The notes under the pieces are model-generated. The model was not told the origin of the DNA. It searched no databases and worked only from the letters and a program-made list of their open reading frames with translations. Of a DNA stretch of 64,000 nucleotides, positions 1 through 57,227 are shown in pieces. Source of the DNA: Phaeodactylum tricornutum CCAP 1055/1. Taxonomy: Eukaryota; Bacillariophyta; Bacillariophyceae; Surirellales; Neidiaceae. Within the stretch, counting starts at the first letter, position 1; every line of letters begins with the position of its first letter. Where the stretch lies: positions 434,001 to 498,000 of the forward strand of contig NC_011688.1 in NCBI RefSeq assembly GCF_000150955.2. The letters are read 5' to 3'. Position numbers and translations under genes: made by a program.

Positions 1-165
1 GTTCTCTGTCCGACACCTCTCGCTCGCAACCAACTCTCCAGCACCCTTTTTCCAAACGGAACCCCGTCTCCCCCCACCGACTCCCGTCACATACATACAC
101 ACATCCGCGTCTAACCAACAGGTTCCCTATCTGATAGACACTCTTCTTTTTTACTTTCATTGACC

Positions 166-6853: not shown

Positions 6854-9415
6854 TTAAGTTCCAAGAAGCGACGTGATAAGCTCTCGAACTTGTATTAGAT
6901 CGGATAAGACTTCTGCCTGGACTCCTTCCACTTCCAGCTTCATTCGTATCATTTCGTCGCGATCGCTAGTCATTTCTCGCACTATATCACTCTTCAATGA
7001 TGTCAGATCGGTTTGAATAGTTCGCAGCTGCTCGAGTTTTTTGCGCTCAATCTCCGAACGAGAGGTGGTCGTGCCTTTCTGACAAAATAGAGCCTCTCGT
7101 ACTTGTGGAGGCCATAACCACCCAGCAGTTGCCGCGCCCATGATCAACCACAACGGTATAACGAAAACAATACAAGCGATTCGAAAAATATTGTACACCA
7201 GCGACTCGATAGGATCGATCTCTTCGTACAGGTTTGCGTCAAACAAGAGCATGACTTGTTGCCAACCGTATCGAAAGAAGTCGGAAGAGCCATTCCTGTC
7301 ATTGTAGTCATCCGAGACTAATCCCGGGGCATTGGGAATTTCCTCTACCTGCATGGGCGCCTTCTTTTTTCGAAAACAACCAAGGCGACGCTGTGCTCCG
7401 TACGTGATGGCATCCATCTCGGCCACGAAATCCAACCGATTCGTCCAAAATACAATCGCAGCGCGGTCGTTCTGAATAATTTCGTAGCTATCGGTGACAA
7501 TGGCAATAAGAACATTCGACAGCAGAATGACAACCAAAAAGGCGTAGCCGACGTACAATATCTGTGCCACTAGACTCGTCGGGCCCGCGGAATAGCGTTT
7601 TTCATCTCCGATCTCTCCCATCATCATGCTGTACACTCGCAGAAGGGATTCTTCAAAGGAGCAATGAGAAAAGCGACAGTCAAGGTCTGCGTCGTAGTTT
7701 AGATCATCGGGCTGCAGCCTGTTGGTGCACATTTCGCCATCCACATATATAAAGTAGAACATTTGGGCAAAGGCCAACAAGATAACACCCACGGCAGTCA
7801 GAAATGCCGTTAGCCGTTGTACGACGTACAGTACGCCACCCACGAATACGGCAAAGTCGACGTATGTGCTTTTGAGATAAACGATGACTGCCACGTACAG
7901 AATTCCTTGTCCAAAGGCGGCGCCACTTCGAAAAAGATTTCTATCCACTGGGCTGTCCATGCTCATACAGATGGCGTAGTAGTAAACCATTGTAATTACA
8001 CCAACATCCAACCAATTGGCGGCGTCTGACCACCAACTACTGAAACTGCCGAGACTAACCAACGAAGCCACTTGTACCAGCTCGCGCATCAAAAAGTACG
8101 ACGCTCCAATGAAAAGGAACACAATGTAAATGTCAATGTCTGTTTTGTTGCTCTCCGGCTCGAAGAGGAAATCAATATAATATTTCGTCGAGAACGCAAA
8201 ACATACAATCAGGACAATCAGAAAGTATCCGTCCAACATGAGAATAGACGTGGGAAAGGGCTGAACAATTTTGTAGTTCAAAACGTTCCGCACGTGTTTC
8301 GATACGACTGCAGTATCTTGAAGCCAATCCGGCAAATCCTGAATCGCCGTCAAAAAGTCGGCTGCGGCTTGAGGCTCCGCGTCCATGTACATACTCAAGC
8401 AAGCGCTCACGTTACTGCGTTTGGTGGATTCATCCGCCGTGTATCCTTTGAGACCGAGAGCCAACAAATGCAAGGGTAGGTAACCGTCTTGATCGCGTAC
8501 GTTGACGGTCGCTCGGGATTCAGCGTACTCCAATAAGAAATGAATCACGTTCGGACTGGCGTCGCGGTGAGCATTTACCATGGCCAAATGCATCGGCGTT
8601 CGACCCTTGTTTTCTTTGGCCGTGAGAGAGGCGGGGTAGACCTGAGCCAAGACTTCGAGTACGGCCGGGTCGGTCCCGTACGCACACGCGTAATGCATGG
8701 GTAACATGCCGCCACGATCGGTGAGTTCGGCCGCGCCATCGTCAGCCAGGAGTTCGGTGTTAGTTGTCATGATAACCGTACTATCGGAATTCCGCGTGGC
8801 ATAAAAGTGGAGCGGTGTTCGCCTCATATTGTCCTGTTGCAGCTTACCGGCGGGATAGGCATCCACGAGGACTTTCATGGTTTCCGGAGACACTCCGTTA
8901 GCGCAGGCATGGTGCAAAGGCAACCAACCGTGCGCGTCCGTCCAGGACACAACATCGACGGCGGAGTCGACGATGGCTTGGATAATATCGTCGGGAGGAT
9001 TATGCAGTTTGCACATGAGATGCAACGCTGTGGCGTCGGCCTGCCCGCGAATAAACGCGGCGGCTTGGCGTTGTTCCACTTGCGGATGCGCCCACATCCA
9101 GCGCCGCACGCGGTCCCACGTGTGTTCCGCGTTTTCGCGCTTTTGCTGTTGTTCTACCGCCGTTAAAGCTCGCCCTGTATCGCCTGTTTGTTTGGCGGTT
9201 TGATTGATGGCATCTTCAAGAATGGCAAAGAGCTGTGCCGGGTCGTCGTTTCCGGCTTCGTCGTCTTCCGGGAGCAAATTGAGAAAACTTTGGTTATTCT
9301 CCGTCTCGTCGTCGTTGTAGTCGTCCATCATAGATTCCTCATCCAGATGCATAAGCTCTTCACGAGCGAAAGTTGCCTGCTCTGCTGGAGTCTGGCCATC
9401 ATATGGGCGAGACAT
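6854..9415 (-). CDS. Ankyrin-repeat, TRP-like cation channel
   Basis: Plasma-membrane or endomembrane cation channel of the ankyrin/Ion_trans class. Single exon, 853 aa. Residues ~1-110 are acidic and poor in order. Ankyrin repeats run from ~125 to ~330, with recurring DAHGWLPLHHAC, GGMLPMHYAC and KGRTPMHLAMVNAH units. Six hydrophobic segments follow at ~375-660. A pore-like loop (LLRVYSMMMGEIGDE) sits between the last two. The final helix (LVVILLSNVLIAIVTDSYEII) resembles TRP/polycystin S6 and its following segment. The C-terminus (~795-853) is a predicted coiled coil. Diatoms carry many such proteins. Ion selectivity and gating stimulus are unknown. It converges on the sulfotransferase gene with about 150 bp between the stops. 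Confidence 0.8.
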   Translation of the reverse strand: MSRPYDGQTPAEQATFAREELMHLDEESMMDDYNDDETENNQSFLNLLPEDDEAGNDDPAQLFAILEDAINQTAKQTGDTGRALTAVEQQQKRENAEHTWDRVRRWMWAHPQVEQRQAAAFIRGQADATALHLMCKLHNPPDDIIQAIVDSAVDVVSWTDAHGWLPLHHACANGVSPETMKVLVDAYPAGKLQQDNMRRTPLHFYATRNSDSTVIMTTNTELLADDGAAELTDRGGMLPMHYACAYGTDPAVLEVLAQVYPASLTAKENKGRTPMHLAMVNAHRDASPNVIHFLLEYAESRATVNVRDQDGYLPLHLLALGLKGYTADESTKRSNVSACLSMYMDAEPQAAADFLTAIQDLPDWLQDTAVVSKHVRNVLNYKIVQPFPTSILMLDGYFLIVLIVCFAFSTKYYIDFLFEPESNKTDIDIYIVFLFIGASYFLMRELVQVASLVSLGSFSSWWSDAANWLDVGVITMVYYYAICMSMDSPVDRNLFRSGAAFGQGILYVAVIVYLKSTYVDFAVFVGGVLYVVQRLTAFLTAVGVILLAFAQMFYFIYVDGEMCTNRLQPDDLNYDADLDCRFSHCSFEESLLRVYSMMMGEIGDEKRYSAGPTSLVAQILYVGYAFLVVILLSNVLIAIVTDSYEIIQNDRAAIVFWTNRLDFVAEMDAITYGAQRRLGCFRKKKAPMQVEEIPNAPGLVSDDYNDRNGSSDFFRYGWQQVMLLFDANLYEEIDPIESLVYNIFRIACIVFVIPLWLIMGAATAGWLWPPQVREALFCQKGTTTSRSEIERKKLEQLRTIQTDLTSLKSDIVREMTSDRDEMIRMKLEVEGVQAEVLSDLIQVRELITSLLGT

Positions 9416-11258
9416 TGTGGCGACTATGAGAGCTACCGAAAGACGTAAACGAAGATCAATAGCCTTTCCAAGGCTATTTTCGATGGCTCCTGCAACGTAA
9501 TCAAATCAGCCTTGTAACGAAAGCTGTTCCAACGCCGTCACCAATACTGTCTAGTCCTTTAATGAAGACCTAGAGTGAAAATATAGAATAACTTGCCGAT
9601 GCTTTCGCCAAGACAACTGTTCCTTTGATGAAGGACCTGTTCATCTCCCTTGTCCGGTAGAATCTGTCGCCGGGGAATCGTTTAAGTGTTGGACGGGGTG
9701 GGGTGGATGGGTCGGGTCATTTTGCCCTTCGGCACTTTTAAAGCTGCTATGGCATCTTTGTCACAATCCTTATCGCTATTCCGTATTATGACTTATTTTA
9801 TAGTACGAAGATAAGTTGACACCGATAGAGATTGTTTAGTTGCGCGAAATCGTAAGAAGACGATACATATAAAACGCCCATGAATCGATCATGACAGCAA
9901 AATACAAGCCCCATCGGTTGAGTCGTTCCCCAAGATCGATTCGTCCTTCGGACGTTCGCTATAAATTGGTTGGACCGCCGTCCGTTGAAATTTTGTCCCC
10001 CCTTAAAAATGTCTTTTCGTCGTATGTAAAGTGACGAACTAGCCATTAGTATTTAAACAGTATCTTCTTATGATACACAGAAAATTTTGGCTTTCGCGCG
10101 AGCGAGCGAGCAGAAATCTCAAAGAGCGGAATTTCCTGTTAATCCCCGTCCAGCTGTGTCTTTGTGCAGGTTTTCGTCGAAACGCTTTTCGGCTGATTTC
10201 AATTTTCGTCAACAGTACATGCACCCTCCATCATTCAATATCCGAATGTTCAGCAGTAAGTTTCGTGTGATTTGGGAACGCATTGCCTTCACCAGACTTT
10301 ACGTTTAGTCGAATCTTGCCGTTCGCGGTGTTTCCGAAATGCCGGTTCCGTTTAAAATTATCTTGCCTGTCTTGAACAGCGTCGTAGTAAGAACGAGAAT
10401 TCAGATTGTTTCTCCGCGATTTTCAGAAGCCAACAGAGGTTTGGAGAGAATTTGTTAGTGGTATTGCTGTAATGGATGCTTCCTAACTCTAAGCAAAACA
10501 CTACGCAGTCCCAATATGCCCCTTTTGCTTCTTTTACCCTCAAACCCTCTCAAAGACACTTTTGAAAAGATTCAATTTTCGCTTCATGACCTTTCTCGTC
10601 ATCCTTTCTAAGATCAAAAAGCTTGAACCTTGCAGTTACAATGATAACCCAGAATCAAATAAATCCGTCATAGAATCAAGGCCTATCGATGCCATAAACG
10701 ACGAACGCCGAATGTCCATCCTTATAGGCGTTTTCGTTCACTCCGATTCGCTTCTGTGAAAACTATGTAGTGCTTCTGACCTAGGTCACTAACTGGAAAG
10801 ACGTCCACTTTATTTATCCAGGCTTTGTCGAATTGATTCGACAGCGTTTGAATCAGTGTTCAGCATTCTATTTCTTGGGTTTTTTAAATCTCTCTGTTTA
10901 GGAATCGTGCCTTTTAGGTCTTGTCCAAGAAAATATGTGCCATGCATCTCATATAAACGAAGGGAGCTTTCGGGGTATTTTTATATAACAGTCCCGTCAA
11001 TAGACTTGCGAAATCGATTGGCTTCCGTTTCTTGCATTGTTTGAAATGAGAGGTTTGTTCAGATTATATAGCTCTTGAAGGCTGTTTGGGATGGTTAGTT
11101 CTTGCGCATTTCCGAACGCCGGAAAATCAATTCCCAACAGTTTCTGGCTCTAAATCGCGTACAGCTGATCGCAGCTTTTGTATGAGTTGTTTTTCATCTC
11201 CAGATTTTTCGCATCATAATAACGCGAATTCGACGGGAAAAGCCAAGAACCTTCAAAA
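9416..11258. other. Long non-coding stretch (1.8 kb)
   Basis: AT-richer than its surroundings, with only short overlapping reading frames (under 80 codons) on either strand, none with recognisable protein character. It must include the upstream region of the channel gene and of the TPR-like gene. I see no tRNA-like B box, repeat array or mobile-element end. Confidence 0.5.
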
Positions 11259-32894: not shown

Positions 32895-34354
32895 GGTGTG
32901 TGGTTGTCGATGGATGTGGATTTGTGTTTGTGTGTACCGAAATCCTGCCCGTTGCGGATTTTATGGGATTTGTATGGCACACACACGCACACACTCTCAA
33001 GTTCTGTGATTGTTTTGAGTATTTGACTCCCCGTTGGATTGGATTGGAACGACTACCGTTCCCAAAAAGAAAGGGGGGCATATCGTCTTGGATGGGTGAG
33101 GATTAGAACGAAGCGGGAGGGTTCTCGAATGTCAACCTTCCGAGGACGGAGGAACAGATGGACACATGTCCCGAATATATTGATGGATGATTTGCGTGTC
33201 AATGGTCTCGATTCGGCGTTCTACCAGGACAGGGGGGGGGGGGGGGGGGTGTCAAGTCCGAACGAAGGTCTCCGATCCCGGTTCGATCCACACGCACCGT
33301 ACCCCACAAACTATGGAACGGATTTCGCAGTCGTTCCAAACCGTTTTACAGTATATTCACCCAGGAATCGTGTACCGGATCTTCGGAGCAAACCAATGGT
33401 TGCCTGCGCACTCCAATAGATTAGCGCTTGTAGCTGTGGTGATGGAACACCGATTGGACGTGGGATTAGCGCTTCATTTCTTCAGAATATGGATATTTAC
33501 CCGAAAGATCACATTTAAAATAAAGAAATTATGTAGAACTTGAGAGAAATTAGGAATTCCAAAGAAAGTGTATCGATATTCGGTAGAAAGCGAGTTGACT
33601 GTGACTTGGTTGAACTTCTCATCCAGACGAGAGAAGCAGAAACTATGTAGGGGGGGGGGTACTTCCGTTCCAACGTCTCAGCCCCTCGCGGAAGACACTC
33701 TTCCAACGAACCGCCATGCGGACAGGGATGTGGTTGGGGACGTTGGAATGGGGGGGGCGAACCTCTACCCTTACTCCACTTCCGTAATCGCATGGTTCAT
33801 CGTTAGCGAGGGTCAGGGTTTTCGGGTACGTGAATGCAAAGGTTGGTGTACGTTCTTCCACTGTCCCTTGGTAGGGCGGGGTTCGTGGCGCACAGAGACG
33901 GAACGGCGTATGACACACACACACACCTCACTCGATGACTGTGACCCTCGTACCGGTTTTGGAGTTACCCGGAAGTGCTTGGCAATCCCAACCGGACGCT
34001 GGTCTCCGTACTGGCAGTGACTAGATATATTGGGGGTTGTGAATGTGACCTGGGGGGGTCGGGTCTACTCGCAGTGGTTATGTTCGTATCCATTATACGG
34101 GTCGGTGCGGCCACACGCTCTAGACGACAACGTTATGCACTCGCACAAACCCACGGGCACAGACTCACCAGTCCATCCGAGACTCCTTCACCCTGACGGC
34201 CGGCCTAGCATCCTACCTACCCTACTTGCCCACCTATACATATACATATATTCATACGTACTGTAGTGCACTGCACTCCCAAAGAGTAAGTCGGTAGGGA
34301 CTGTGAGTTCTCGGTTCGGCTCCGTGTCCCCCGTCGTCAACCGGGACGATCGAC
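32895..34354. other. Intergenic region with repeated G tracts
   Basis: 1.46 kb between the divergent NhaC and SEC16-WW genes. It contains G runs on the + strand: 18 G at 33232-33249, 10 at 33650-33659, 8 at 33750-33757 and another near 34050, plus CA-rich stretches. A GGTTCGATCC string at ~33284 has no tRNA around it. Open frames here are probably chance. Confidence 0.5.
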
Positions 34355-37300
34355 ATGTTTCCCCCGCCGCCACCACCCAATGCGGGGACATTGCCGTCGC
34401 ATCCTCCGTTCGCACCGAATCTCGTGCCCAACAGTCACCCCGAGTCCACGACGGGTACGAATGTCAACACTACCATAACGAATGCCGGAACGAGTTACAC
34501 TCCAGCGTCGGCCGTGATGACCGACCCACGCAACCGGAGCCGGAGCAGTCGTAGTCGCAGCCCCAGTCCGACGATGACGCGGTCTGTACCGGCGTCACCC
34601 CGTTCGGTCCCTTCCACACCCACACGTCGGGCCCTCCCCCGTCCTCCACCACGATCCTTACCGCGTCCGCCCCACCGCCGCGTCGGTAGCCACGATGCGA
34701 CGACGACGGCAACCCCCAGTCGCCATACCACCACAGCCACGACGTCGACGACGATGACAACACCAAGTGGACTCTATACTCCGCGTCGTTTCAAATTGCC
34801 CCCCACCAGTCACACACGCCGGGAGACGTCGTCGCCCTACGTTACGCCCACCCACACGCCGCAGTCGTCACCCTTCCGGCGACCCCGGGTCTCGCATGCG
34901 ATGGAAGAAACGGATGCGGTCACGAATCCTTCCACGGATCCGTGGGGAACCACCGGCGCTCCGTTAGCCGACGTTGCCGAACCACCCTTGGTACCACCAC
35001 TGCTGCCGACTACCAGTAATGCGGCGACATTCACCACAACGAAAACAACAGTACCTGAGGCTACTACTCCCACACCCACGTTGACGGTGCCGTCATCCTC
35101 CTTGCCGCCGCAGTGGACGGAAGCCGTGGACGTCGATACCGGAAAGTTTTATTTCGTACACGTCGAAACGAAAGAAACGCGCTGGGAGCGTCCCACCATC
35201 GACGACGGCGACACGCCGACCCACCAACAACAACATCACATCGCGTGCGTGTCGGCGGAAGCCCCCAACGGTGAGGAAGCCCGGACCGCCGTTCCAAACG
35301 CGGCCCCGCTCGACCAGGCGTCCGACCCGATCGAACCGGGTTGGACCGCCACGGTCGATCCCGCGTCTGGTCGAACCTACTACTATCACGCCGCCACCGG
35401 TGAAACCCGTTGGGAGCCGCCGTTGGCGCGTGCCGACGAACCCACTAACCCCGTGTCGAAACCGCCGTCCACCACGGAATCGGCCGCGAACGTCTCCGAG
35501 ATTCCGATCTCCCTTCCGTCGGGCTGGGTCGAACAAACGGATCCCTCGTCGGGACGCCCGTACTACTACCACAACGCGAGCAACCTGACGCAGTGGGAAC
35601 GACCCGGCGACGCAACGTTGCCGGTCGACGAAAAAGACGAGACGACCTCCGAACGTGTGGTAGAGTCACTGAATCCACCAACTAAACCGTCTCCAGTGAC
35701 AGTGGAGAGCGCGTCGGTCGCCGAAGAGCCTCGAGAGTTCGATCGCGTTCATTCGGAACCGGCGGATACGGAACCCACTCCGGACCGGGAGACGGCCGTT
35801 GCGGAACAACCTACGGAGGAACAAAAAACGGATCCCGCGGAGACGCAGACGGCATATTTCCTGCCTGCCGGCTGGGTGGCCGCCAACGATCCGTCGTCGG
35901 GGCGGACCTACTACTATCATGCGGAATCCGGTGTCACGTCATGGAATCCACCGAAAATGCCAGGGACAGTCCCTGAACGAGAGGTGGCCGACGAAACTGG
36001 AACGGAACATCCCGAAGAAAAGTCTTTGGATCCAGTGTCTGCCTATGAGGAAACCAAGTCCGAGTCTCCAGCGACGGAAACGTTAGGCATTTCGACGGAT
36101 GATACGATAAGTGATCGTCACGGGATTGGAGGAGAGTTCGATTCGGTTTCACCGGATTCTTGGACGTTGCGGGATGGAAATAGTGCGAACGATACTGTAA
36201 CGGACGTGACAGAAGGCCAGTCTCCCGAGCTTCCGAACGGTTGGCAGGAACTGGTCGATCCCTCTTCCGGATCGACCTACTACTACAACGAAGTGAATGG
36301 GACAACGTCCTGGGACCGGCCCCTTGCGCAAGAAACTACGGAGGTTTCGGTATCGCCGCCCGAGGAGGAAAAACACGATAGTGCGGATATTCACCACCCC
36401 CGTGCCAGTCCGGAGGATACCGGTAGTGCTAATGACGGAGCCATGACCACGGATCCGCAGTCCGAACCGCCTTCGGCTCCCCTGGAAGCCAACGTGGGCG
36501 GCGTACTGTCGTCGGTGCCGGAGGTCGAAGCGGAAGCGAACGAAGGTAAATTAGAGGAGAAAACCGCCGCTTTACCTGAAGGTTGGGTTGAGCTTGTGCA
36601 CGAATCGTCCGGAAAGACTTACTACTTCCACGCAGAAGACAACGTCACGTCTTGGGAGCAACCCGAACCGACACGCAGACAAAAAAATGATGAGGACGAA
36701 AGGATAGTCGTTCCCGAGGAGTCTTTGTATCCGGAAATACCTTCCAATAGCGATCTGGCACCCGAGGAAACAAATGTTGCTGCTTTACCGCAAGGCTGGA
36801 TCGAAGCGGTGGACCCAAGTACCGAAGCGACTTATTACATCAATGAAGTTGAAGGCATTACCTCCTGGGAGAGACCAAGATTTGGTGACACCGTGAGCTT
36901 TATCAATTTGGTTACAGAAAACGATGTACCAGAACCACATTCCAACTCTGCAGAAGGATCCAATAAAGCCCATGATGAAAACGATAGCGGCTTAGAAGAC
37001 GAGAATAGTCTTACCGACCTTCCTCCTGGGTGGGCAAAATTAACGCATCCAGATTCCGGGGATGCGTACTACTACAACGAAGCGACGAATGCTACCTCCT
37101 GGGATATTCCGGAGTCCTCGACCGTGAATGGGACCTCTGCTCAGCTAGACGAGCCTTTCGAAACTACGACAGAAGCCTTTTCTAGTGGAGGAGGGGCATC
37201 CCCGCGAAGTGTTGATGGTTCCTCTGAATACCCACGCGAGGAAGCCAACCTTGGAGGAGACAGTAAGAATTTAAAATCACATGTCAGTCTTGCAGGAATG

Positions 37301-40300
37301 GTCGAATCGGAAAACTCCAAGCCTTTTGAAATGCCCGAGGACGCAATCTCTACTGGGTGGGAAGCACTTGTCGATGAAGCGTCGGGTGCAATCTACTATT
37401 ATAATAAACTAGATGGTACAAGCTCCTGGGAAAGACCGCTCGCTTCGGACATTGGCCTAGACGGTGGATTAATCGAAGTGCAGGAAAAGGAGACTGATAT
37501 CGACAGCACCGTGGAAGCGAATAGGATGGACAATGTGACTGTGCAGAGTCTTCCGGAAGGATGGATTGAAGTCATGGATCCCAATTCAGGTAGCGTTTAT
37601 TATTTCAATGAAGTTGACGGTACATCAAGTTGGGATAAACCGCAAGAGCCAACTACAGACCCAAAGCATCTCCCTGACGAGGAGACAGAAGCAATAGTCG
37701 GTCGAGCTGCTCATTCTATCGCTACATTTGGTTTCGGTGGAAAATTGTGTGTGCATCGGGTTGCTCTTGGTAGTCCCTGTGTTGCAATATACCGGCCTTA
37801 CACGTTGCTTCCGATGGAGAGTGTCGTTCGTGTGGAAGAAAGGAAAAGGAAGGCAAGCATTTTTGGTCCTTTGAGCACTTCTTCGGAAAAGTCAATGGCG
37901 ACTTATCTGCAACTCTTGTCAAAGGAAGAGAAGGGTGATATTCTTTGGAAGGTGATTTCTATCGCCTACAATCACGGAGGCAAGCTCCGTGGCAACGACA
38001 GTCCAGAGAAAACAGCTTCTCCTGAAGAGGAAGTTGTAGAGCTTCTTCTACAGGCAGGCGACATTTTCGAGTGTCCAATAACCTCGAACGCCCCTGGTAC
38101 GTTTCGCCGATTGAGAATAGTCTTTATATCTTTGTTCCTGACGGTATGAGGCACTTTGCATTTTAGGGCGTAACGTCGATGAGATACAAAGCTTTCTCTT
38201 GAGGGGTCAGAGAAGCGATGCTCTTAAAGCAGCTCTCACTGGCGGATATTTCTCACTGGCTTTACTTGTCGCGAGTATGTGTGAGCGTGAATCTTTCCAG
38301 CACGTAGCTACTGAGTTTACAAAGTCGTCTTTCACAGCTGACTCTCCTATGCACACTGTATGTCTCTTGTTGGCTGGTAATATTGATGGGCTTTTGGACG
38401 ATCACAAAAATGAAGACGTTGAGCTCTGGGCCGGAGACCCGGAAAAACTGCGTTTCACTTGGAAAGGACACCTTGCAGCAATTTTAAGCAACCGAACATC
38501 TGGTTGGGATCGCCTGGCCATATCGCTTGGTGATAAGCTGCTAGAAATTGACGAGATTGAAGGCGCCCACTGTTGCTACCTCGTCAGTGGTTGTCCGATT
38601 GCTAGTCCGGTCCGAAATGCCCGTTTGACGCTTTTAGGATGTAATTTTGGGCCGGCGGACCTGACACTAATGACCGAAAAATCTGTCTTCGGATTTGAAT
38701 ATACGGAAGCTTTCGAGTGGTCAAAACGTCGCCAAAATCCGTCTTCGTCTATACAAAGCCTCCAGGCATTCAAGCTCATGTATGCAACGCTGTTGGCCGA
38801 CCTTGGGTACCAGACAACAGCCCGTCACTACCTGCAGGATGTATTGAAATGTGTCGATGCATTGCCAGAGGATGCCGGAATTGAATCGAGACCTGGACCC
38901 TTCTCTTTGAGCATTCTATCAGCAGATCGCGGAGGACTGCTTTATCACTTAAACAGCTTTGAAAGGCGGTTGACTTTGAAGGAGGTTGCTCGTGGCACAC
39001 CTGTCCCCGACGTCATAAAGGACAAACACAGCAGCAGGGCTTCATTTGAGGATCAAGGAGAGCTCTCTTTTTTGACCACGCAGTCGAACATGCTGGAGAC
39101 AACCACTGGATCAACGATTGTCGGAGAGGCCTTATTGCCAGCTGACGAAGACGATGATGCACCAGCAGTAGGTAGCGAGACCTATGAATCAGTCACAAGT
39201 GAAAGTGATGATCCTATTGTTGTCGGTCCGGAAGTGCTACCAGTAGAGCCGAGCGAGACGTTCCTTGAGAGCTCCGAAAGTGCGGTCTATATTCTTCCTC
39301 CAGGGTGGGTCGAATCCATTGACCCAACATCGGGGGAAACGTTTTACTTCAACGAGTCTGAGGGAACTTCTTGCTGGGAGAAGCCGACTTTTGATGAAAC
39401 AAAGACAGAGCAAGAGGCGTCTATGAAAAATTTCAATCAGGGAATCAACAATACAGACGATGTAGATAATGAGGAGGCTACCGAGCAACCCGATGGTTTG
39501 TACGAAGGAGGTCATATGGACAATACAGCAGTTCCAAATCTCCCGGTCGGATGGGTCCAAGTTGAAGACATCAATGGAGGTCCCTCGTATTTCTACAACG
39601 AGGACGACGATGTCACGACTTGGGACCGTCCGACACTAGTCGCTCAGGAGGGCGAAATGGGAACGCGGTCAATCGCACCCGAAAGGGAGGCGATGCCATC
39701 TACCAAGGATGTGATCCAAGCGAGTCATTCCACAAATTTACCAGAGGGCTGGGAGGAGCTCGTGGAACCGTCTTCTGGCGACGTTTACTATTACAACGCT
39801 GCAGAGAATGTTACTACTTGGGATCGCCCGGTCCAAGTCCCAGATAAGGCTGAACGAACTTCAGCGGTTTCTACTTGTAAAAGTCAAGTATCGTCGTCCC
39901 CTGATCTTCGAGGCGGATCCTCACTTAAACAATCTGCGATGGAGTTTTCTGGCGAGTTCACCGAGAATAGGCCGTTATCAGTTGACTCCAAGCCGCCTCT
40001 CTTGACCGAGCCCGTTTTGAAAGAAACTATTAATGATTCGAAGGGCTTGACTGGTTCTGGAGGAAAGACACCTGCTTCAAGTTTTGCGGCACAGGATATA
40101 AATACTACGCAACAGCCGTCTTTCGCTGCAACTCCTTTACGACAGAAATCCCCGGGCAGTACGAATGTTACTCCTGTGAGGGTAGACAAGGCGCCCACAG
40201 CACCTTCCTCTGCGCCGGCCAACCTCGAGCATGGCTCAAACAAGAGTGAGTACAATTTGCTTTGCTATTACCCAGCACGTTCATCTTCCTAATATTTTTT

Positions 40301-45120: not shown

Positions 45121-46122
45121 GGTGTAGGGAGAAAAGGTGTACGCTACGCGCCGGTACGGGCTCGGTGGAACGTGGGGGGAAAAAGGGGACACTACAATCT
45201 ACGGTTTCTCGGCTGAACTGTAAACACTATACTTTGTGTTGACCCCTTTTGGTATGGCGTCGCAGTACGTACAGGTATAGAGGGTTTGCACGGACCAGAC
45301 GGCAAATCACCAAAGGGTCGTGAACGGGTAACACGAATTGTGCGAACAGGGTTTGTTCAGGCAACGGCAACCGACCAGGAAACGAGGATGGATGGTAGTG
45401 TAGATACGGTGCGCAGTACAATGCGATGGTGATCGCGGTACCGGTAGTACCCGTCGAGCCGTACTTTCCCGTGCTCCGTGGGGTGCGCTGTGGTGGTCTC
45501 GAGATCGCGGGAGGCAATTCCGGGTTGGACACGGTGGGACGGCCTGACGGCACGAACCCATTGGAAACGGGGAGGGCCCGGAAGTCCGAAATGAGGGAAT
45601 CGGGAATAGGACTGACTGTGAAAAGTACAGAAATTGGATTTGAAACAAAATCTGGTTTTTTGAAATCGTTTCGAATAGAGATTCCATTTCCTCGTTCGAA
45701 GATTTGACGGTTTCGCGCCAGCAATATATAGATCTACAAAACTGTAGAAGAATTGTATGTACACGCATTCGACCGTTTCTTGGAAAGGGAACTACACCGT
45801 TGGACTCACCGACTCACTTTTTGGGGGGCGTATCTGTTTACTCGGTTCGTTCGCACCCCCACTCACAGTCAACCTCGGGTCTTCCTTTCCTACCTTGCCG
45901 TGTCTGGATCGCTGGAATACGTGACCATCACAGTCATTCTCTGCTGTTCGCTCACTCTGCTGTTCACTGTCCGCTGGATCGATCGACAACACAGCATTGC
46001 GGTAGGTACACGCGTAGGCTGCATCGGTGTTCCTCGACGGCTACCAACAGTCTCCCACGTTCCTTTCCTTACAATCAATCAATCAATCAGCCGCCTTGGT
46101 AGTTCGTACACATACATACAGC
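45121..46122. promoter_or_regulatory. Divergent upstream region (nucleoporin / large orphan)
   Basis: 1.0 kb between divergent genes. A short (TCAA)n run sits at ~46072-46090 just before the orphan's start. Remaining frames look like chance. Confidence 0.4.
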
Positions 46123-49100
46123 ATGGGCAATATGGTTTCCAACGAAAGAGGAGCTACGGGCACCGGTACCAGTACAGCCATCCCCACCCGGACCAACCAG
46201 AAAAAAGCCTCGGCACAAGCCGTTCAACCACCTCCCTTGTGGAACGAATCCTCCAACAAACAGTCCTTCCACCTCGATTCACCCGGCTCGGACTTGTCCA
46301 ATCCTTCGCAGTTCCGACACCGCCACCGTCACACCGTCAGCAACAGCAATATTCATGGTCAAGCGCAAACACCGCTTCGACTGCGGCGTCGGGCCTCCAA
46401 GGTTGTCAGCAAGTCACACATCGCCACCATGGAATCCTCGCTTCCGTACGGTGATTACTCCAAACGGACCAGTTTGCCCCCGCCTTCCCAGTTTTATTTT
46501 GGCGCTGGCTTTGGCAACGTCGATAACGCCAGCGCCAGCTTTCTCGAGGATCGCGACGAGCAAGACTTGCTGGACCCAAGCGCTCCCGAAATGGCCGTCT
46601 TCCGCCGATTCCGGTTGGCGGCCAACACTGCCGGGGTGGGACGAATGGAAGAGGACGCCGCTAGGCGTCGGGAACAGATTCTGACCTCGCGCCAGCAACG
46701 CAAAATTTGGTTCAAATCGCGTCGCAAGGCTTTGCAGCAGAAGGCTCGTCGTGCCAAAACTATGCTTTCCGCTTGTTGGGAAGAGCGACGGGGTATGTGC
46801 ATCGTCATTCCCGACGTGCAGCACCCGCAAGATGGGCGTCCCGAGGCGGCATCCTACCCACCACACGTTGCGGTAGACTCCATCACCACGGACCCACTAC
46901 GCCGGGTTTCGTCTACCTCTCGTCGCGTTTCCGAGGAACCCCCCATCGTCGACGGTACTGGTCCGATGCAGTTTGATCCGCCGCAAGTCCGCGTGCTGGA
47001 TGAGAATCAGCAGTCTCGCAACTTTGATTCGTTTTACGACGAACTGACCGTCACGGCGGCGCCTTTTGCGCCCGTGTGGAAGGAGACAAAGCAGCCCAAA
47101 CACGACGAACACTCACGGGTACCCGTCGCTGCCGAGGTTCCATTTTATTTGTACGATCCCCAACGTATTTTGGAAGGAATCGTCGACTCCTCCGAGTCTC
47201 CGACGACCGCCACAACGTCGACGAAGCTCCAGCAATCGCGCCGTCGTACAAGTGCGAGGTACGTGGATCGTTCGGCGTCCCCCGTGGTCGCACTCTTTTC
47301 CGACGACGACGAAGACCAGTACGATCGCATCGGTGATGATGACTACACCACCAAGAGCATCGAGACCAGTGACAAATACAAGACCGAGAAAGACGACGAT
47401 AATGACACCAACAAGACTCCATCTTCATCCAAAACCCTGTCAAATCGGTCGTCACCCTTTGACGAAGACTCGGTATCGCAAGAACCAGCGGAAACGCCCA
47501 ACGACGAAAACGCTTCCGTTGTGACTCCGTCGACGGTCCAGGACCAGCCGATAGCGGTGCGTCGATCCTCTACACAGTCTTGTTTGGACCGTGAAAGCAT
47601 TGAAGCCAACGTCCAGCAACAAATAGACCAGCAACAGAAGGGCGTCGCCGTCACGCAGAAACACCAAACGCGACACCGCCCGAGTCTTGCAGAACGGGCC
47701 GAGGATCTGGGAAGTTACGGCAGTGATCCACCCCAAACCAAGGCCCGAGCCGTGACGCAGGCGACAAAAAAGGGAGATGCTCCTCTAGATCAAGCCACAA
47801 CCCGAGTAACCGCTCCGGAGTCCCGCAAGCCCGTGGTGGGGCATACCAGTACCGCCAGCATTCGAGTGGCCCGCACGTCGGAATCAACGGAACCGATCCA
47901 AACAGCGCACGCCGTTGCAGCCAAGAAATCAGGCAAGGTCGAGTCAGTCCAACCGAAGCCAGCCAAGACAGTTCAACCGCAAGAATCCCGTCAATCGTCT
48001 TCTTCCCAGAACTTGCCCATATTGCTCCAGCTGGCGGGGTGGAGAGCACCCAGCGCGACAACCAACAAAGGGCAACGGAACAGCAACGGCTCAAATGCAT
48101 CTACTTCGACTGCAGCAGGTGTTGCCAAACAGCCCAACAACATTCCCATCTTGTTGCAGCTTGCTGGTTGGAAGACCGAAAATACAAAGGATAAACAGGG
48201 CATCCAGAGACTAACTCTTACGGAAAAGCAGCTCTCCCAAGGGCCCCCGGGCCGACGTAGTAACGTCATGGCGACGCGAACGGTTGCACCGACTCGGCGT
48301 CGTCAGAGTGCGCCACCACTGTCGGCCGTTCCGAAAGACGGCAATCGGGCTTCCAATCGAGAATCGAGCGCCTCTGAACCAATCTTCCGGAAAGGAACAA
48401 CATCCCAAATCCAAAAGGAGAATCAGGGTAAGAACATTGCCACCATACTGCAGCAAACGTATCCAATTGCGACGGCCTTCTCTATGGATGCGATCCATGA
48501 CCTTCAACCGGCACAGGTGCGTTTTGATCCGAATCACATTAAGAAAACTGCCAAGGCGGGATCGCGCCCGCTCTCCACGGCTGTAGGAGTTGTTTCAGTG
48601 AATGGATCAAACGAGATTAGTACGGGGCTGAAAAGTCCGGCGGCCTCTTCAACGTGCACTACGGAAACACCTCTGAGTCAAGGATCTATTCCCATACTGT
48701 CAGAGGAGGCTATGGGTAACGCGGCCTTCTTGTTCTCTCCCAGTTATATGGGGAATGACAAGGCATCCTCAGAGCAAATGAGATTGGCACCACCAGCGGG
48801 AGTTATGCACCGTGATCACGCTTCTTCCTTTGCCTTGTCAACCTTCGATTCCCGCTGTCGTGTTTCTGGATCTTCCCTCTCGACCAAACCAGTCGCGATT
48901 CGTCCCCTTCACAATGTTGTCGACGACAGTGGCAGCAACCGTAGCTATCATACCAACAGCAAGACTGTTTGGAGCATTGATGAGGCTCCCAAGGAGGGCA
49001 GTGACGTCGGTAAACGCAATAGCAGTATAACAACGTATGACGATACCATGCGAGGAAAGTTTGCGAGCAAGGAATCACAAAAGTTTGAAATGCCACCAAT

Positions 49101-50635
49101 TGTTCATGCACTCTCGGATCTCACTGATACGACTGGACGGGAGAGTGGAATGGGCACAAGTACGCGGAAAGAACAAGAACGTACTTCTTCGAGTGTCCCC
49201 TATTCCTGAAGTCTCCATACGCCACGGCGGCAACATACTGGACCGAGAAGAGGAAGAAGAGGACATGGAGATATTCGAAAGCGAAAGCAGTGATGAGAAC
49301 GTCGTAGGACCCACAGCGACATGGACATACCGAGCAGATGGAGAGAAAAGTGGAGTAACTCCGTTCCGCTCTGGTGTTAGTGTCAAGTATGCGACGAACT
49401 CTCCCTTTTTGCGATTTCAAGATGCCAAAACAAAGTTTACGGGAGGACCAAGTGCCGATGAGCCGACCGAAGATTTCGAGGATCCGGAGGCTCCCAATAC
49501 AGTGCAACGCGTGACGGGCGGTGGACTAGTTTCATCCCGCATTGCCGCCATGGAGCAACGGGCAGCTACGGCTGTCGTCTCGGGACCACTAGGCAATAGT
49601 GGGAAGGTGGTGCCTCGCAAGGTTCGACGTGCCACGACTGGAAGAAAAGCGTTGGCGCCACGACGAGCCAAGCTGGTAAGTCCACTCTTCCGCAGGAACC
49701 ATCAAAATGATGGCAAATTTCACGACGAAAATGGTCTCCTACAATCTGACTCGGAGGACGTATCACTCGGCAACGACGAGGGTCTCGTAAACAAACCCAA
49801 ACATCCTAGTTCACCCACCCAATTCGAGAAGTCTCCTACGTTGGTGAACGGCCAGGTGGTAGACTCGAGTAAAAATCGTTCGACAGCTTCACTACGGGTA
49901 CAAACCGAGCACGTTAAGTTGAGCGACGTTTCGGCAGACTTCGCTGGCGACAAGGAACACGAAGAGGACGATATGCATTCTTTCGGCACGCAAAGTTTCG
50001 GTCGCATAATGCATCCTACGACGATCGATGAAGATTCGGAGTCCGGAGCCTCTCGAGGTTTTATCAACCATTTATTTCCATCGCAACCAAGCCAGTGCGA
50101 GACGGAAGGCGAAGCGGCATCTGAATCCGAATCGGACGATGAATTTGCCATCCTTTTGAATCAAGCTGACGGAGAGGATGACGACGATACCGTTTCGACT
50201 GTACGTCAGAATCGACAATACCCTTCACTGTCTAAACTTCATGGTAGCCGTCCTAGCTACCGAGTGTCGTTCAGCGACTCCAGCACCGTCGAATCTTGTT
50301 CCGTGGCCACAGTTCGCCGACAGCGTCTATCCGGGTCTTCCACCGTCGAGGCCACTAAACGTTTGGCCATGAAAGCGACCAGCCAGTCTAGTCTTTTGGG
50401 CCCATTCCGCGAGGAGGCTCCAGTCAAACCCAACGAGCAGAATGCTCCGACTGCACCGGGATCATTGCACCTGTCTCCTATGCAACGCACTCCCATGCAA
50501 GCTCGCAAGTGGAGAGCACTTGCTGCAGCTGCACAAGAAAAAGACAGCAAGCGCAACTTGAGTGCTAAAACGAAAATCGCCGCTCGCGGAAGGCGCAGCC
50601 TTGCGGAACGCAACCCCAACGTGATGGGATATTAA
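46123..50635 (+). CDS. Large disordered orphan protein
   Basis: Not recognised. Two long frames are best read as one gene: exons 46123-49159 and 49212-50635 with a 52-nt intron 49160-49211 (GTACGC...TGAAG), 1,486 aa. Without that intron the first frame ends at 49209. The protein begins MGNMVSNE, a possible N-myristoylation start. It is rich in Ser, Thr, Arg and Gln. Near residue 200 is a basic helical stretch (QQRKIWFKSRRKALQQKARR). The motif NLPILLQLAGW recurs as NIPILLQLAGW (DNA near 48010 and 48139), with a weaker third (NIATILQQ near 48432). Acidic EEEEEDMEIFESESS opens exon 2. The end is basic (RKWRALAAAAQEKDSKRNLS). No function assigned. Confidence 0.62.
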
Positions 50636-50820: not shown

Positions 50821-52272
50821 CTAGTGAAGCGCTTTGTTGCTACGCTTTGACCGTAAGCGTCCCCATGGGTTACGCGATTGACTATGAGAGCTTACCGTTA
50901 GAGCAGAAGGTTCTAACGGGCCATCGCCCCCACCATCTGGACGTTCGGTGCTGGCTAGGTTGGAGCCAGTCCTCGGTGATTGGCGAGCATCTATGTTGAT
51001 TTTGTTTGGATTGGTGGTACTGTTTGTCGCCGGTGTCGTCGATGAAACCTTGGACATCTCGTTCCGCCGTCGCTGAATGCTAATCCAGTGCGAAATACTT
51101 TTATCCAGGGCCGTTTGGGGCTTGGAGGACCCTTGCTTCGCTTCGGACGGACAATCCTCTTGGGATGCAAGTTCTGCAGGAGTCATTGTTTTGGTTTTTG
51201 AAAGTCGGGCTGTCTTCTGCGGCGTCCGTGGAATCGGGCCTCTTGACAATTTTGCGCTGGACGTCACTTCTGATTCGGCGGGGCTTTTGGTAAGAATCCG
51301 TTCACCCGACGGGGTTTCGTTTTCTAGGGCTATGGGCACTAAACTGCTGGTGGTGGGAAGCAACGGCGTCAACGCTTCGGACTGATTGGGTCCCTCGGTC
51401 GAATTGTTGGCAATTTTCTGCACCATTTGCTGCGCGGCATTTTGCCACGTGGGACGGCATGCGCCGTTGCCTGGGGAGGCTGGTTGCGCGTCTACAGTTG
51501 CTAATTGTAAGTGGCGCTTCCCGATCCAAAGACGCTCGTAACAGGTGAAGCAGGTTTGCAAGAGACGTCGTTTCAACAGGTAATTTTCCTTGACAGCTTG
51601 ATTCCGGGCCATTAGGAGGGAATTGAGATGCTTTTCCAGTTTTAAATCTTGCTGGCGCAATTTGGTTGTAGTCGTCCCGTTCCCCCTTGCCGGATCACTG
51701 CGAGTCGTGTTGACTCCATTTGGGGTAGATTCGACGCCAACAAGTTTTGCGAGGCTCATCTTTTCAATAACCAGTTGCGAATTTTCCGCTTGAGCGTCCG
51801 AGAGGGTTTTGCGCAGGTAAGCGACCTCCGCCTCCAGTCTTCGAGTTTTCAGGCTCGCGTTTTCCTGGGTTTCCCGCAGCGCCACGAAACAGGCCCGAAC
51901 GGATTTTCGTAGATAGCGGACTTCGGATACGGGCGATAGAGGAGTCTCTACCAATGGACCATGCTTGTCGGAATTGGAGGATTCATCACCAGTCGCGTGA
52001 TACGAACAAGTCGCAGCGGCGCAACCAGAGTTCGCGTTATTAGGTTCTCCTTCAAAGTTAATACTGCCCTCGTTGTCGTCGTCGTGCTGCGGTCTCTGCT
52101 CGTAGTCGCTACCTTCTGTACTCAAGGATAGGTCGTCTGCGAGCGCTTGCGAGTTTTCCAATACTCTATCGGCTATCAAACGAGCTTGCCTCGTGATGCG
52201 TGCTGTTTCTTCTACTGCTGCGGCCTGTTCCAGAAGGAAGTCCGCTTTGCGCTGGACTACCGCTGATACCAT
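50821..52272 (-). CDS. Coiled-coil protein, 483 aa
   Basis: Not recognised. Single exon. N-terminal helix rich in Ala, Glu and Arg (residues 1-45), an acidic low-complexity linker, then a coiled coil from ~125 to ~185 (RRLEAEVAYLRKTLSDAQAE) and another basic helix at ~215-260 with LKLEKHLNSLLMARNQAVKE. The C-terminal half is disordered and rich in Ser, Thr and Pro, with SRGPIPRTPQKTARLSKTKT, which looks like a phosphorylated linker. No membrane segment. It converges on the large orphan gene with ~185 bp between the stops. Cytoskeletal or scaffold roles are possible but not shown. Confidence 0.65.
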   Translation of the reverse strand: MVSAVVQRKADFLLEQAAAVEETARITRQARLIADRVLENSQALADDLSLSTEGSDYEQRPQHDDDNEGSINFEGEPNNANSGCAAATCSYHATGDESSNSDKHGPLVETPLSPVSEVRYLRKSVRACFVALRETQENASLKTRRLEAEVAYLRKTLSDAQAENSQLVIEKMSLAKLVGVESTPNGVNTTRSDPARGNGTTTTKLRQQDLKLEKHLNSLLMARNQAVKENYLLKRRLLQTCFTCYERLWIGKRHLQLATVDAQPASPGNGACRPTWQNAAQQMVQKIANNSTEGPNQSEALTPLLPTTSSLVPIALENETPSGERILTKSPAESEVTSSAKLSRGPIPRTPQKTARLSKTKTMTPAELASQEDCPSEAKQGSSKPQTALDKSISHWISIQRRRNEMSKVSSTTPATNSTTNPNKINIDARQSPRTGSNLASTERPDGGGDGPLEPSALTVSSHSQSRNPWGRLRSKRSNKALH

Positions 52273-52716
52273 TGGTAGAATTGCTTTTCTTCGGAAGGAA
52301 ACGCCAAAATTCTAAGCAAGGATCTAAAAGTGATATGAGCGTGCTTCCGCAAATTATCGCATTCGATGCCGTGTAATTCCTATCGGAAAGTGGTGTTGAC
52401 GGCATCGCCGTGCGAGTAAGGAGGATTCTACCCTCAAGGTTGATTCTGTGAGTTCGGTGCAGCGTGGAGAGGTCACGGTGGTGTGGGTCTCGGTGGTGTC
52501 GGTCTGGGAGGGTAGGGTGTTCCTTCGGAGAATGTCGTTCACGAGACCCAAGTAATTGTATATTTATACATTTCGATTATAATTAAGGACTAATAATGCC
52601 ATTTGATATTTTACTTTTACGTCAAAGACTACCTGCGCTCATTGTTCACTGACAATTACTGTTTTTAGATATTTTTTTCAACGCGTATTGACAATAAATT
52701 TATCAATGAAAGTCTT
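52273..52716. other. Intergenic region between two leftward genes
   Basis: 440 bp: upstream of the coiled-coil gene and 3' of the CRAL-TRIO/bZIP gene. A GT-rich stretch (GGTGGTGTGGGTCTCGGTGG) lies near 52480. No gene. Confidence 0.4.
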
Positions 52717-55700
52717 TCAACCAAAGAAAAAGTTCCAGAGATTGCGATTGTTTTGATCGCCTTGCTGAATACGGGAGCCTAGTCTACCGCCGGGTCCGTC
52801 AGGCGATCGAGCATTTTGTGACCGTAACTGATGTTCTAGTTCTTGTCGTCCCAATTCTTCTTCAAGCTGGCGACGTTGCAATTCTCGAATAGTCCACCGA
52901 AGCGTTTCGTTTTCTTCGAGTAGGGCCGTACGTACCCCTTGATCAAACGGGGATTGTATCTGATGCTGAAGCGAAGGATTCAGACTGCCTTGTCTCGGAG
53001 CCGGCCAATGCTGGTCTTGGGAATCAGACCCTCTCGAGTAAAAGCTTCCTAGTGAAAAGTTGAACGGGGCTGCACGGCTAGCGAACTGGATTCCTCCTCC
53101 CGTTACAGGCTCGGTAATTCCCGGAGCAAGCCGTTCTGAGTGAACCTGATCAGCTGCGATCGAACGAAGTTCTTGTTCCCGAGAGAATTGCCCGACCCTA
53201 CTGATTACAATTTGCGCCTCGCTCAGCAACTCTTCAAATGAAGCGTTTTTCCGAGAAAGTTCAAGGTTGCGATCGCTGAGATCAGTGCACTGCTCCTGCA
53301 AGACCTCAATTTCGATCCTTTCCCTTTCACGCTTCCGACGAGAGTGTACGACATTCATTCGTCGTTTTCTCTCCTTCCTTTCTTCTTCCGACAGTGATTG
53401 CAGAGGTTTGACACCAGTGAAGTCAAACATCCTTTCAGCGGTGTTTTTGCCTCCAGATCCGGCAGGTAAGTTCCATTCCAACCGTGTCTGAAGTTCCATC
53501 CACTGAATGAAGTGTTCAAAACCCCATTCCCCACCGATTGTCTTGGGGAGACCTTCCTTGCTCAGGCCCTCCCTTCTCATTGCTTCCACAATAGAACCCT
53601 TGGTAGACCTGTCGTGAAAGATCACCCTTTCATCCACGACGTGTCCAAAAACCTGCCGCATTGATGCTAGGCCCTTTTCGCGAGATATCAAAGGCTGGCC
53701 TTCCGCACAGCTTTGTATTAAGTGCACCGCTCTGATGTGGATCGGTAGTGAGTTCAACACCAGCTCGGCGTTTAATTTCTTTCCCCTTTCAGCCTTGACT
53801 TTGTTGATAAGGCAAACCATAACAACGCCACCTTGACGTGACTGGGCGTTGGAAGCAGCAAGATCCAAAACATAGAACATGACACGAAGTCTGCAATCCA
53901 ACGAAGCTTTTACGAGTTTAGACGGATCGAAACAAACGACTGAATTGCCTTCTTGATCCTTGGGGAGAAGAGAAAAGAAGCCAGTACCGAGAAGGTTCAG
54001 TTCCCTACGACCCAGAGCACCTTCACCAGTTTGAGTAAGAGGCAGAACGAACTTGTTACCAAATATCGATTTCCTCGTTTGCCAGTATGACGCCATCTTC
54101 TGCGCTGCCACTTCTGGATCGTTGTTTGCGTATCTTAAGTAACGAGCATAGCTTGAATTGAACGAGTGCAATTCCGTATTTCGACGAGCTGCCTCCTCCA
54201 TAGCATTCTTCTTCGCGACTGGAAGCGCACCCAGGGCTCTTTCTATTGCCAACTGAGCTTGTTCCCCGCCTGTTCCGACCGTACTAGCAGTGACTCCGCT
54301 TGCATTTGGCTCATGGACTGTGGGCGAACCTTCGTTGTCCAAAGCTGCCGACATTAGCAATCGAAGAGAAGGCCCTGCAGTATTGTGACTTTCGCGTTCC
54401 GCTTGCAGCCGGTCGGCTCTCCATAGCACTTTGTAGTCGTCGCTCAACGAACCTCCGCAGCATTTCGGCAATGAGGCTCCGTCGAGACCAAAAGTCTCCA
54501 ACTTTTTAACCATTTCGTCATGCCCTTCCTTGCTGTGAAAGCTTGTTCTGTGACTCACCATTGCTCCTAAGACTTTGAGCACTGTTGGGAGGATTAAGCG
54601 CAAAAAAGATCTTCCCTCAGATTTAGCGCGACAGTGGACCAAGTGGAGATGTTGGTGCCTTGTTGGAAACGCCTCCCTGACCATATCAGAGCACACAGTG
54701 ATTGCCGAATCGAAGCTAGATTTCGGAGCTCCTGCTTGTCCCATAAGGACAATCCCAATATAGCCTTCTGTGCATGCTAAAGGATATTCGCAAAGTATTG
54801 TCCACAAGTAGAAACTGAGCCGGAGTCTTGTGTCAAGCGAATAGTTGATTCTCTTCGAGGGGTCTAAGCATGCCACCGGACGTCCACTTTTATCGCTCGG
54901 TAAAATAATGAAATAACCTGAGCTCAGGGTTCGCACGACGTCGTCGCCTATAGCACCAAACTGTGTCATGGGCAAAAAGGCCTTTCCCTTGAAAATCTTC
55001 TTTCTCCACTTCCAATAACAGGCCAGCCGCTGCGCCGCCGCCCATGCATTAAACTTTTCGAAGCGAAGAAAGCGAAGGGGAGGAGACTCCGCGAACACCA
55101 GGCCTGGAACACGTCGCAGAGCCTCGAGGTAGTCCTTTTTTTCGTCTTCAGCGATGAAATCGAAGGCACCTTCTAGTTGCTGAATAGCATGACGAACAAC
55201 AAAAGGACTTTCCTGTACAGTTTCATTTCCGGAACCGGTTATTTTCGACATCGATGGTTTGGCTAAACGCGACATCTCCTCGAGGTTCTTGTGTACGAGC
55301 ATTTTTTTGAATGTGCCGTTTATCCAAGTTCCACCAATATTGCTCGGAAGCCCCGAAACTGTAAAGCCATGTGGTTCGAGCTTCAAAAGCGCTTCTGCCG
55401 GTGAATGTGCAACATGAACGAAAGTTTTGCCTCTCAGCTTGTATTGGACATGACTAGAGGCATTGAAAGCAATAGAGTCCTGGCGAGCGGCTTGTGACGT
55501 GTCTTTCAAGATCGTAAGGAAATGGATGCTTTCGATTGGGAAACCGTCGTCAAGCATTCCCAAAAATTCCTGAACAGACTCAAGGGAACCGGGAAGACTT
55601 TGTGGAGCATTGAAACTGATCAAAATGACCAATTTGTTCTTTGACCTAAAAAAATCAGTCCCGATACAAGCGAGATAAAACATTGTCCGATACAGAGCCT

Positions 55701-57227
55701 CCGAGGACGTCAAATCAGCAACTCGTGTGCCATCGCAATAGAGCACGCACGACCCGTTTCTACAGGCAGGAAGCAGAGTGACCTTTTCACTTTGAAGCGC
55801 GAGAACCTCCTCCGACGATAGGGCACCAGTCCCAACGGAGACCATTGGTAGCAACGTCTTCGGCCCGAAGAGTTTCTTTCGATGCTTCCAGTACGCCGCA
55901 AGCCTTTTGGAAGCAGCCAAAGCGTCGAATTGTTCAAACTCCAAAAAATTGTGCGGATTGGACTCGACTTTGACCAAATCAGGCATTTCCTCTTTCGCCT
56001 CGAAATAAGCCGCTGATTCCTGCTTGGGTAGAAGGGTGATAGCTTCATCAGTCAAGCTGTCCCATTGCAGATGCCTTACAGCTTAGGTTGTGGCACAACA
56101 GAGATAAAATTTTACTGTTAGCAATTTTAGACCATTGGTATATCTCTTCAATATAATGGATTTATGCACTTACCAGAATAATTCTCCGGTGCGTTCATAT
56201 CATGCCTTGGTACCGGCGCTCCAACTCCCTCAGCAGGTCCTTTATTGCGGGATGGGCATCTAGATTCACTCCACTTCTCAAATTGATGCATTTCCTGGGC
56301 TAAAGAAAAATACGCTTCTTCTGAGATTGCTGACAACTTAGGCTTGGGTCCAGTATATACACTCGACTTCTTCAAAGCTTGTCCAGTTCTTGGCGTATTG
56401 ATCTCCATCCATTTATCGAAATTGTCGTAGCTCCAGGAACCTCCAAGTTTTTCCGGAATCGATTCCTTCGAAAGCCCGTGCCTAGTGAGCTCGGAGAGTA
56501 GTTCCGGGCCGCCGTGAAATTCTGTGGTGGGCGTTAGGAACCCAACTAGTCCAGTTGTCCAGTAGGGAAAGGTTCTCTTGATAAGAGAGCTTATGCCTCC
56601 ATCATTAGATTGCGGTAGACAGTAGTGGATAGCTTTCAACTTGAGCGCGAAAGTTCTATCCATTAAATCAAGAAGCTGTCCAAGCTTTTTTGACCATCGT
56701 ATGGTGTCTAAAACTCGAACAAATACAACACCCTCAGTCTGAGACTTTTCGTTTGAGGAAGCTACTTGCATCCAGAAAAAGAAACAGCGTAAGCCACGAG
56801 TCCACGACATTTCTGCATCTTCGGCTTCATTCCGGGAAGGATCGAAACAGAAAACGGAACAACCTTCTGTATCGTTCGGCAACGGTACACCCGACCCAAT
56901 TGCCAAATGTTCTAAATCATCAGTCGACATCGCACCAGCGCCACTCAGGTCGAGTAGTGATAAAAAAGCCCTCTCGCCAAAGATGTGCTTACGTCGCGTC
57001 CAATACTTCGCTATGCAACTGGCGACGACCTGGACATCATAGTCATAGCATTTCAGGTAGTGTAAAATCTGAGACTCTGTATCGACCAGATGAGGTGCGA
57101 GGCGCTGCGCTTCGAGAAATTCTCTGTTTTCATCAGCTGCCATTGATTGTAACGCCTCTTTCACCTGCGTGAAACTGAAAGAGTCGTCGTCAGACGCAGC
57201 CCCACACACCCTTGATTCAGACTTCAT
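52717..57227 (-). CDS. Four-module CRAL-TRIO-like protein with C-terminal bZIP region
   Basis: Model: exons 57227-56174 and 56081-52717, intron 56082-56173 (GTAAGT...CTAAG, 92 nt), 1,472 aa. The frame of exon 2 has no ATG at its head, which supports the splice. Four modules of ~270 residues recur. Each has AxxLAxYWxxRKKIFG, then L....G.......LP.D..G..V, and the CRAL-TRIO-like end G(L)..ESIPEKLGGSW or a variant. They span about 20-280, 365-630, 660-940 and 960-1230. Near residue 1250 comes a bZIP: ERKRRMNVVHSRRKRERE (N...SR..R basic region), then heptads ending IVISRV. A second coiled coil (ENETLRWTIRELQRRQLEEE) lies near the C-terminus. A lipid-responsive transcription factor is an attractive but untested idea. 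Confidence 0.78.

Follow-up and report, generated by a model that had tools for sequence, protein, structure and literature searches.

Four CRAL-TRIO modules and a bZIP-type segment in one predicted protein of the diatom Phaeodactylum tricornutum: a possible ligand-controlled transcription factor

Introduction

CRAL-TRIO modules hold lipophilic molecules, while bZIP segments dimerise and bind DNA. A gene on the minus strand of contig NC_011688.1 of Phaeodactylum tricornutum CCAP 1055/1 raises the question of whether a single diatom protein carries both and, if so, whether it places gene regulation under the control of a lipophilic ligand. The gene lies in a 64,000-nucleotide stretch (positions 434,001 to 498,000 of the contig, here called the window, in whose own numbering all coordinates are given), and an initial annotation made from the nucleotide letters had described it as four CRAL-TRIO-like modules fused to a bZIP region. 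Our analysis indicates that the architecture itself, four CRAL-TRIO modules and a bZIP-type segment in one diatom protein, is very probably real. The complete reading, a dimeric bZIP factor with four CRAL-TRIO modules for hydrophobic ligands and ligand-controlled regulation, falls a little short of an even probability.

Results

The gene model spans 57227..52717 and encodes a protein of 1472 residues followed by a stop codon. Exon 1 (56174..57227) contains the N-terminus, the first CRAL-TRIO module (M1) and the greater part of the linker between M1 and M2, and exon 2 (52717..56081) carries modules M2 to M4, the bZIP segment, a second predicted helix, the C-terminus and the stop codon in one open frame. 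Since the stop-to-stop open reading frame (ORF) begins at 57272, the first ATG, at 57227, is preceded by an in-frame stop. The upstream ORF extends from 57272 to 56148 and the downstream one from 56082 to 52717, the latter with 1121 codons without a stop. Removal of a predicted 92-base intron (56082..56173, GTAAGT...CCTAAG) by the splice pair 56173/56082 fuses both frames into 1472 codons. The coordinates given in the initial annotation were right. Four donor/acceptor pairs were tried; 56169/56075 also fuses the frames, returning 1471 residues, and the remaining two terminate at 363 and 358 residues. Intron retention would stop the exon-1 frame past M1, at 56148. As the single 1121-codon exon encodes M2-M4 together with the bZIP segment and the C-terminus, the fusion of these parts is independent of the intron.

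Coding character was assessed by a codon-usage score, for which six other ORFs of the window served as training set and in which stop codons penalise the other frames. For all seven coding stretches scored (M1, M2, M3, M4, the linker plus bZIP, the post-bZIP linker and the C-terminus) the value was above zero in the frame of the gene and below zero in the other five, while the intron, whose codon usage is not coding-like, and the 3' flank scored below zero in every one of the six frames. Coding-like usage in a single frame thus holds for the region that begins at the end of M4 and includes the bZIP segment. This codon usage, together with the location of M2-M4 and bZIP in one open frame, argues against a gene-model or assembly artefact in which two genes were merged, an explanation that we consider very improbable.

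The CRAL-TRIO array occupies the N-terminal four-fifths of the protein and comprises M1 (residues 18-285, 56373..57176), M2 (residues 355-622, 55270..56073), M3 (residues 644-912, 54400..55206) and M4 (residues 956-1222, 53470..54270). The modules, of about 268 residues each, share 22-30% identity across 248-260 aligned positions, and the six pairwise BLASTP comparisons returned E-values from 1.3e-16 to 1.1e-37 (M1 to M4, 6e-36; M2 to M3, 1e-23), thus bearing out the earlier description of four related modules of some 270 residues. Their alignment contains thirty invariant columns. The LPK/PEK..GG-type signatures noticed before are present as IPEKLGG, LPSNIGG, LPKCCGG and LPKTIGG, with P and GG invariant. 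The Pfam cut-off for CRAL_TRIO_2 was passed by three of the four modules, namely M1 (E 2e-6), M3 (E 3e-23) and M4 (E 4e-13); M2, for which BLASTP shows homology to the other modules, matched no Pfam family at E <=1. CRAL_TRIO_N, an associated but non-defining feature, was matched by none of the four at the same limit. When a profile of the four modules was searched against the PDB, CRALBP was recovered with an E-value of 2.9e-6 and the alpha-tocopherol transfer protein (alpha-TTP) with a whole-sequence E-value of 0.0014 (best stretch 0.17, profile positions 32-234 of 268).

The fold was then modelled with AlphaFold2 for M2 and for M4 with the C-terminus, using input alignments that consisted of only the four modules of this single protein. 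The M2 model showed a predicted template modelling score (pTM) of 0.75. For M4 with the C-terminus the pTM was 0.48, with block means of the predicted local distance difference test (pLDDT) of 54-94 across model residues 1-240 and values below 50 at model residues 246-289, the last part of M4. Foldseek comparison with the PDB at E <=0.001 returned CRAL-TRIO/Sec14 proteins in 21 of 21 matches for M2, and all 33 matches of the M4 model contain a CRAL-TRIO/Sec14 domain, two of them being long chains of neurofibromin for which the aligned region is not displayed. Alpha-TTP and CRALBP head both searches, above neurofibromin (M4 top match alpha-TTP, E 3.9e-9). Target-normalised template modelling scores were modest, with a maximum of 0.66 in the best 50 of 759 matches for the M4 model and of 0.62 among the matches listed for M2. 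On these models M2 is predicted to fold as a CRAL-TRIO domain, and neither M2 nor M4 showed a different fold, the result that the initial annotation had named as contrary to its proposal. The data therefore strongly identify the four modules as CRAL-TRIO domains, as first assigned, by Pfam for three of them and by fold for M2.

BCH domains and NF1 are also devoid of CRAL_TRIO_N (PMC3313917). The BCH and neurofibromin Sec14-PH proteins belong to the same CRAL-TRIO superfamily and resemble the diatom modules in this respect; M2 and M4 were nonetheless modelled with six helices ahead of the first strand, and neurofibromin ranked below CRALBP and alpha-TTP in both fold searches. We did not settle on a strict BCH assignment for the modules.

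The bZIP segment (residues 1248-1310, 53206..53394) lies within the C-terminal 250 residues, on the exon of M2-M4. According to PMC4046829, a bZIP is defined by an invariant N-x7-R/K followed by a zipper exactly nine residues further. The diatom segment satisfies this definition with a basic region N1261-x7-R1269 and a zipper formed by L1279, L1286, L1293 and F1300. Asn1290 and Asn1297 occupy zipper 'a' positions, Asn1290 being at the second, where the GCN4 zipper also carries an Asn. The bZIP spacing was found once in the 59,491 residues of window translations (both strands, stop-to-stop, at least 60 residues). In 20,000 shuffles of the whole protein it appeared 30 times, and 1 time with at least six K/R in the basic part, whereas shuffling of residues 1245-1330 returned the spacing with at least six K/R in 1 of 100,000 cases; since the pattern was composed after viewing the sequence, these counts serve as orientation rather than as a formal p-value. 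Residues 1250-1335 were modelled as a single 86-residue helix with moderate pLDDT (block means about 63-78), so that a C-terminus without a bZIP helix, the other outcome named beforehand as contrary, was not what the model displayed.

With a 50-residue fragment, bZIP_2 was the top Pfam family (E 0.0049) and TSC22 the second (E 0.011); shuffled versions of the fragment returned a bZIP family in none of ten cases and weak unrelated families in two of ten. A zipper arising by chance was set aside, given this control and the rarity of the spacing in shuffles. An alignment with ATF-4 covers 47 residues without gaps, 14 of them identical, in which N pairs with N and R with R, at an E-value of 0.51.

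Several results weigh against a DNA-binding bZIP. Gathering scores were missed by the 50-residue fragment for both bZIP_2 (17.4 of 22.3 bits) and bZIP_1 (14.8 of 27.6 bits), and a 97-residue fragment ranked Glyco_tran_28_C (0.0069) and TSC22 (0.016) over bZIP_2 (0.063). The whole exon-2 protein listed TSC22 (E 0.38) and no bZIP family in Pfam. When the 97-residue fragment was searched against the PDB, a TSC22-type chain, the DSIP-immunoreactive peptide, came first (0.047), while ATF-4 took third place (0.51) and JunD fourth (2.5) among five, and no bZIP structure appeared in the best 50 of 759 Foldseek matches for the model containing the C-terminus. Moreover, His1264, Ser1265 and Lys1268 replace the usual Ala, Ala and Ser of the basic region, and the first three 'a' positions of the zipper are a Cys and two Asn. 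Ala-Ala and Ser/Cys are usual, not invariant, at the DNA-contact positions of basic regions such as that of GCN4. As reported in PMC4046829, the basic region often varies among the bZIPs of oomycetes, which are stramenopiles, with the Asn as the main site of change; a divergent basic region alone is therefore not disqualifying.

The same observations bear on a different explanation, in which the zipper is a dimerisation coiled coil adjoining a basic stretch without DNA-reading function, and the protein a TSC22-like or scaffold-like cytoplasmic dimer acting as lipid carrier or membrane scaffold. It would account for the bZIP scores under cut-off, for a TSC22 similarity that is comparable with the 50-residue fragment and better with the 97-residue one, for the listing of TSC22 with the whole exon-2 protein and for the best PDB match. 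Coiled-coil character may also be contributed by the second predicted helix of the model (residues 1396-1442, 52810..52950), perhaps itself a coiled coil; it displayed no clean heptad register, the best being 46% hydrophobic at a and d, and as a fragment alone it matched no Pfam family. CRAL_TRIO_2 is, in addition, tabulated for the Ras-GAP Ira1 in PMC8401276. On the other hand, the Asn and the Arg, their distance from the first Leu and the presence of Asn in an 'a' position are all consistent with a bZIP. TSC22 missed its own gathering score of 30 bits with both fragments (16.3 bits on 50 residues, 15.8 on 97), and its match starts at fragment residue 15 (profile 15-48 of 57), leaving the basic region outside. 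The TSC22 family model covers a TSC box plus a zipper. On balance we regard such a non-DNA-binding coiled coil as rather unlikely.

The bZIP assignment of the initial annotation hence stands, supported by the exact register, by the helix of the model and by a hidden Markov model score under the threshold, and is weaker than the CRAL-TRIO assignment. Judged from its sequence, the segment is likely a bZIP by descent; that it binds DNA is somewhat less certain but still probable, and with a similar degree of confidence the protein may be taken as a DNA-binding transcription factor.

The remainder of the window contains other genes worth recording. The first ORF, at 115-927 (+), encodes a chlorophyll-binding protein, and among solved structures its best relative is the fucoxanthin chlorophyll a/c-binding protein Lhcr10 (E 8e-89). 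Lhcr10 offers no counterpart to about 37 codons located between residues 65 and 103, perhaps an in-frame intron. The protein also contains ASAFAP, a diatom plastid-targeting motif. An 883-residue ORF at 6857-9505 (-) carries ankyrin repeats and an ion-transport domain. Two ORFs in different frames at 34307-40289 (+), probably linked by a short intron near 38097-38166 as located by eye, contain a Sec16 Sec23-binding domain and ten plus three WW-domain stretches and represent a putative COPII scaffold with many WW domains. At 46018-50632 (+) two long overlapping ORFs of 1063 and 534 residues showed no Pfam match at E 0.001, and the same holds for a 496-residue ORF at 50824-52311 (-), on the same strand as the fusion gene and downstream of it, in which coiled-coil-like stretches were seen by eye.

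Discussion

If the protein is a transcription factor, its zipper would form a homodimer or heterodimer and its basic helices would contact DNA, while lipophilic ligands would enter one or more of the modules; a bound ligand might alter how stable the protein is, where it resides or how it dimerises, and might in this way act on gene regulation. Such ligand control, suggested by analogy with known factors, is a tentative proposal. As to the ligand, CRALBP binds retinal, and tocopherol is named as ligand in the titles of the closest-matching structures. The position of alpha-TTP Arg59, a residue with a role in phosphoinositide binding, is occupied by Y in M1, by E in M2 and M3 and by A in M4 when aligned by eye. 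The absence of the Arg from all four modules speaks against a conserved phosphoinositide site, as far as can be judged from sequence. With CRALBP and alpha-TTP as closest relatives and the Arg59 position not kept, isoprenoid-type ligands would be preferred to phosphatidylinositol as a first guess, with carotenoid products, tocopherol and sterol precursors as candidates.

CRALBP and alpha-TTP share the fold of the modules and are their closest solved sequences. Both are single-module carriers without a DNA-binding part. This relationship, as well as the presence of four non-identical copies (at the 22-30% identity given above), fits a further explanation, according to which the protein is a real transcription factor whose CRAL-TRIO array serves as a lipid-presenting or membrane-tethering scaffold, or as a multi-ligand carrier, and not as a sensor. 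The modules could anchor the factor to a membrane until its release, or hand the ligand to other nuclear proteins. Sequence does not discriminate a scaffold from a sensor, and we rate this explanation as unlikely. A more elaborate form of the ligand-controlled bZIP factor, in which four diverged CRAL-TRIO pockets let the protein sense as many as four different lipophilic metabolites and combine these inputs in a single DNA-binding output, is about as improbable.

Within the same lineage the initial annotation had drawn an analogy with the LOV-bZIP aureochromes, which we judge fair. Aureochromes are described in PMC4827209 and PMC10967249 as stramenopile bZIP-LOV blue-light factors, and the transcription-factor survey in PMC4827209 gives bHLH-PAS and bZIP-LOV as the associations common to the two stramenopiles covered. 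Like them, the diatom protein would combine a sensory ligand-binding part and a bZIP in one chain; however, the sensor of aureochromes is a flavin LOV domain, whereas the diatom protein has four CRAL-TRIO modules ahead of its bZIP segment, and its Pfam matches up to E 10, for exon 1 and exon 2 alike, include no LOV or PAS family.

Plant HD-Zip IV proteins are the nearest precedent; in them a hydrophobic-ligand domain is likewise coupled to a leucine-zipper factor. The START domains of PDF2, ATML1 and GL2 are a precedent for lipid-controlled zipper factors, with ligand binding by the HD-Zip IV START guarding against turnover and influencing the dimer level (PMC10126025). The plant proteins differ in having a homeodomain and the START fold, as opposed to a bZIP basic region and four CRAL-TRIO modules.

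The novelty of the fusion was evaluated in the literature and in genome contigs. No description of a CRAL-TRIO/bZIP fusion was found in searches of the open-licence PMC literature for this combination or for CRAL-TRIO in diatoms, and in PMC8401276 the CRAL-TRIO and bZIP terms occur in separate table rows. A point against the proposed reading is that no relative was confirmed among pattern matches in viral (40, 8, 40 and 36) and in bacterial and archaeal (17 and 9) genome contigs; as the searched contigs are those of viruses, bacteria and archaea, this absence says little about diatoms. A centric versus pennate comparison in the Seminavis robusta genome paper gives 40 CRAL-TRIO superfamily genes (PMC7335047), and such modules are therefore numerous in diatoms. 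PMC4046829 lists 20 bZIP candidates in each of two diatoms.

Conclusions

Proteins that unite a sensor domain with a bZIP are known, and the new element, to judge by the sequence, would be the CRAL-TRIO array as the partner. Animal nuclear receptors exert direct lipid control of transcription. The same type of control is attributed to plant START-domain factors in PMC10126025. A diatom protein reading up to four metabolites would be a counterpart of the nuclear receptors and START-HD-Zip factors made from other parts. If the proposed function is true, the attachment of a CRAL-TRIO array to a bZIP would represent a separate invention in the lineage of the LOV-bZIP aureochromes, and the gene would provide a concrete candidate linking the pigment, sterol or storage-lipid state of the diatom with gene expression.

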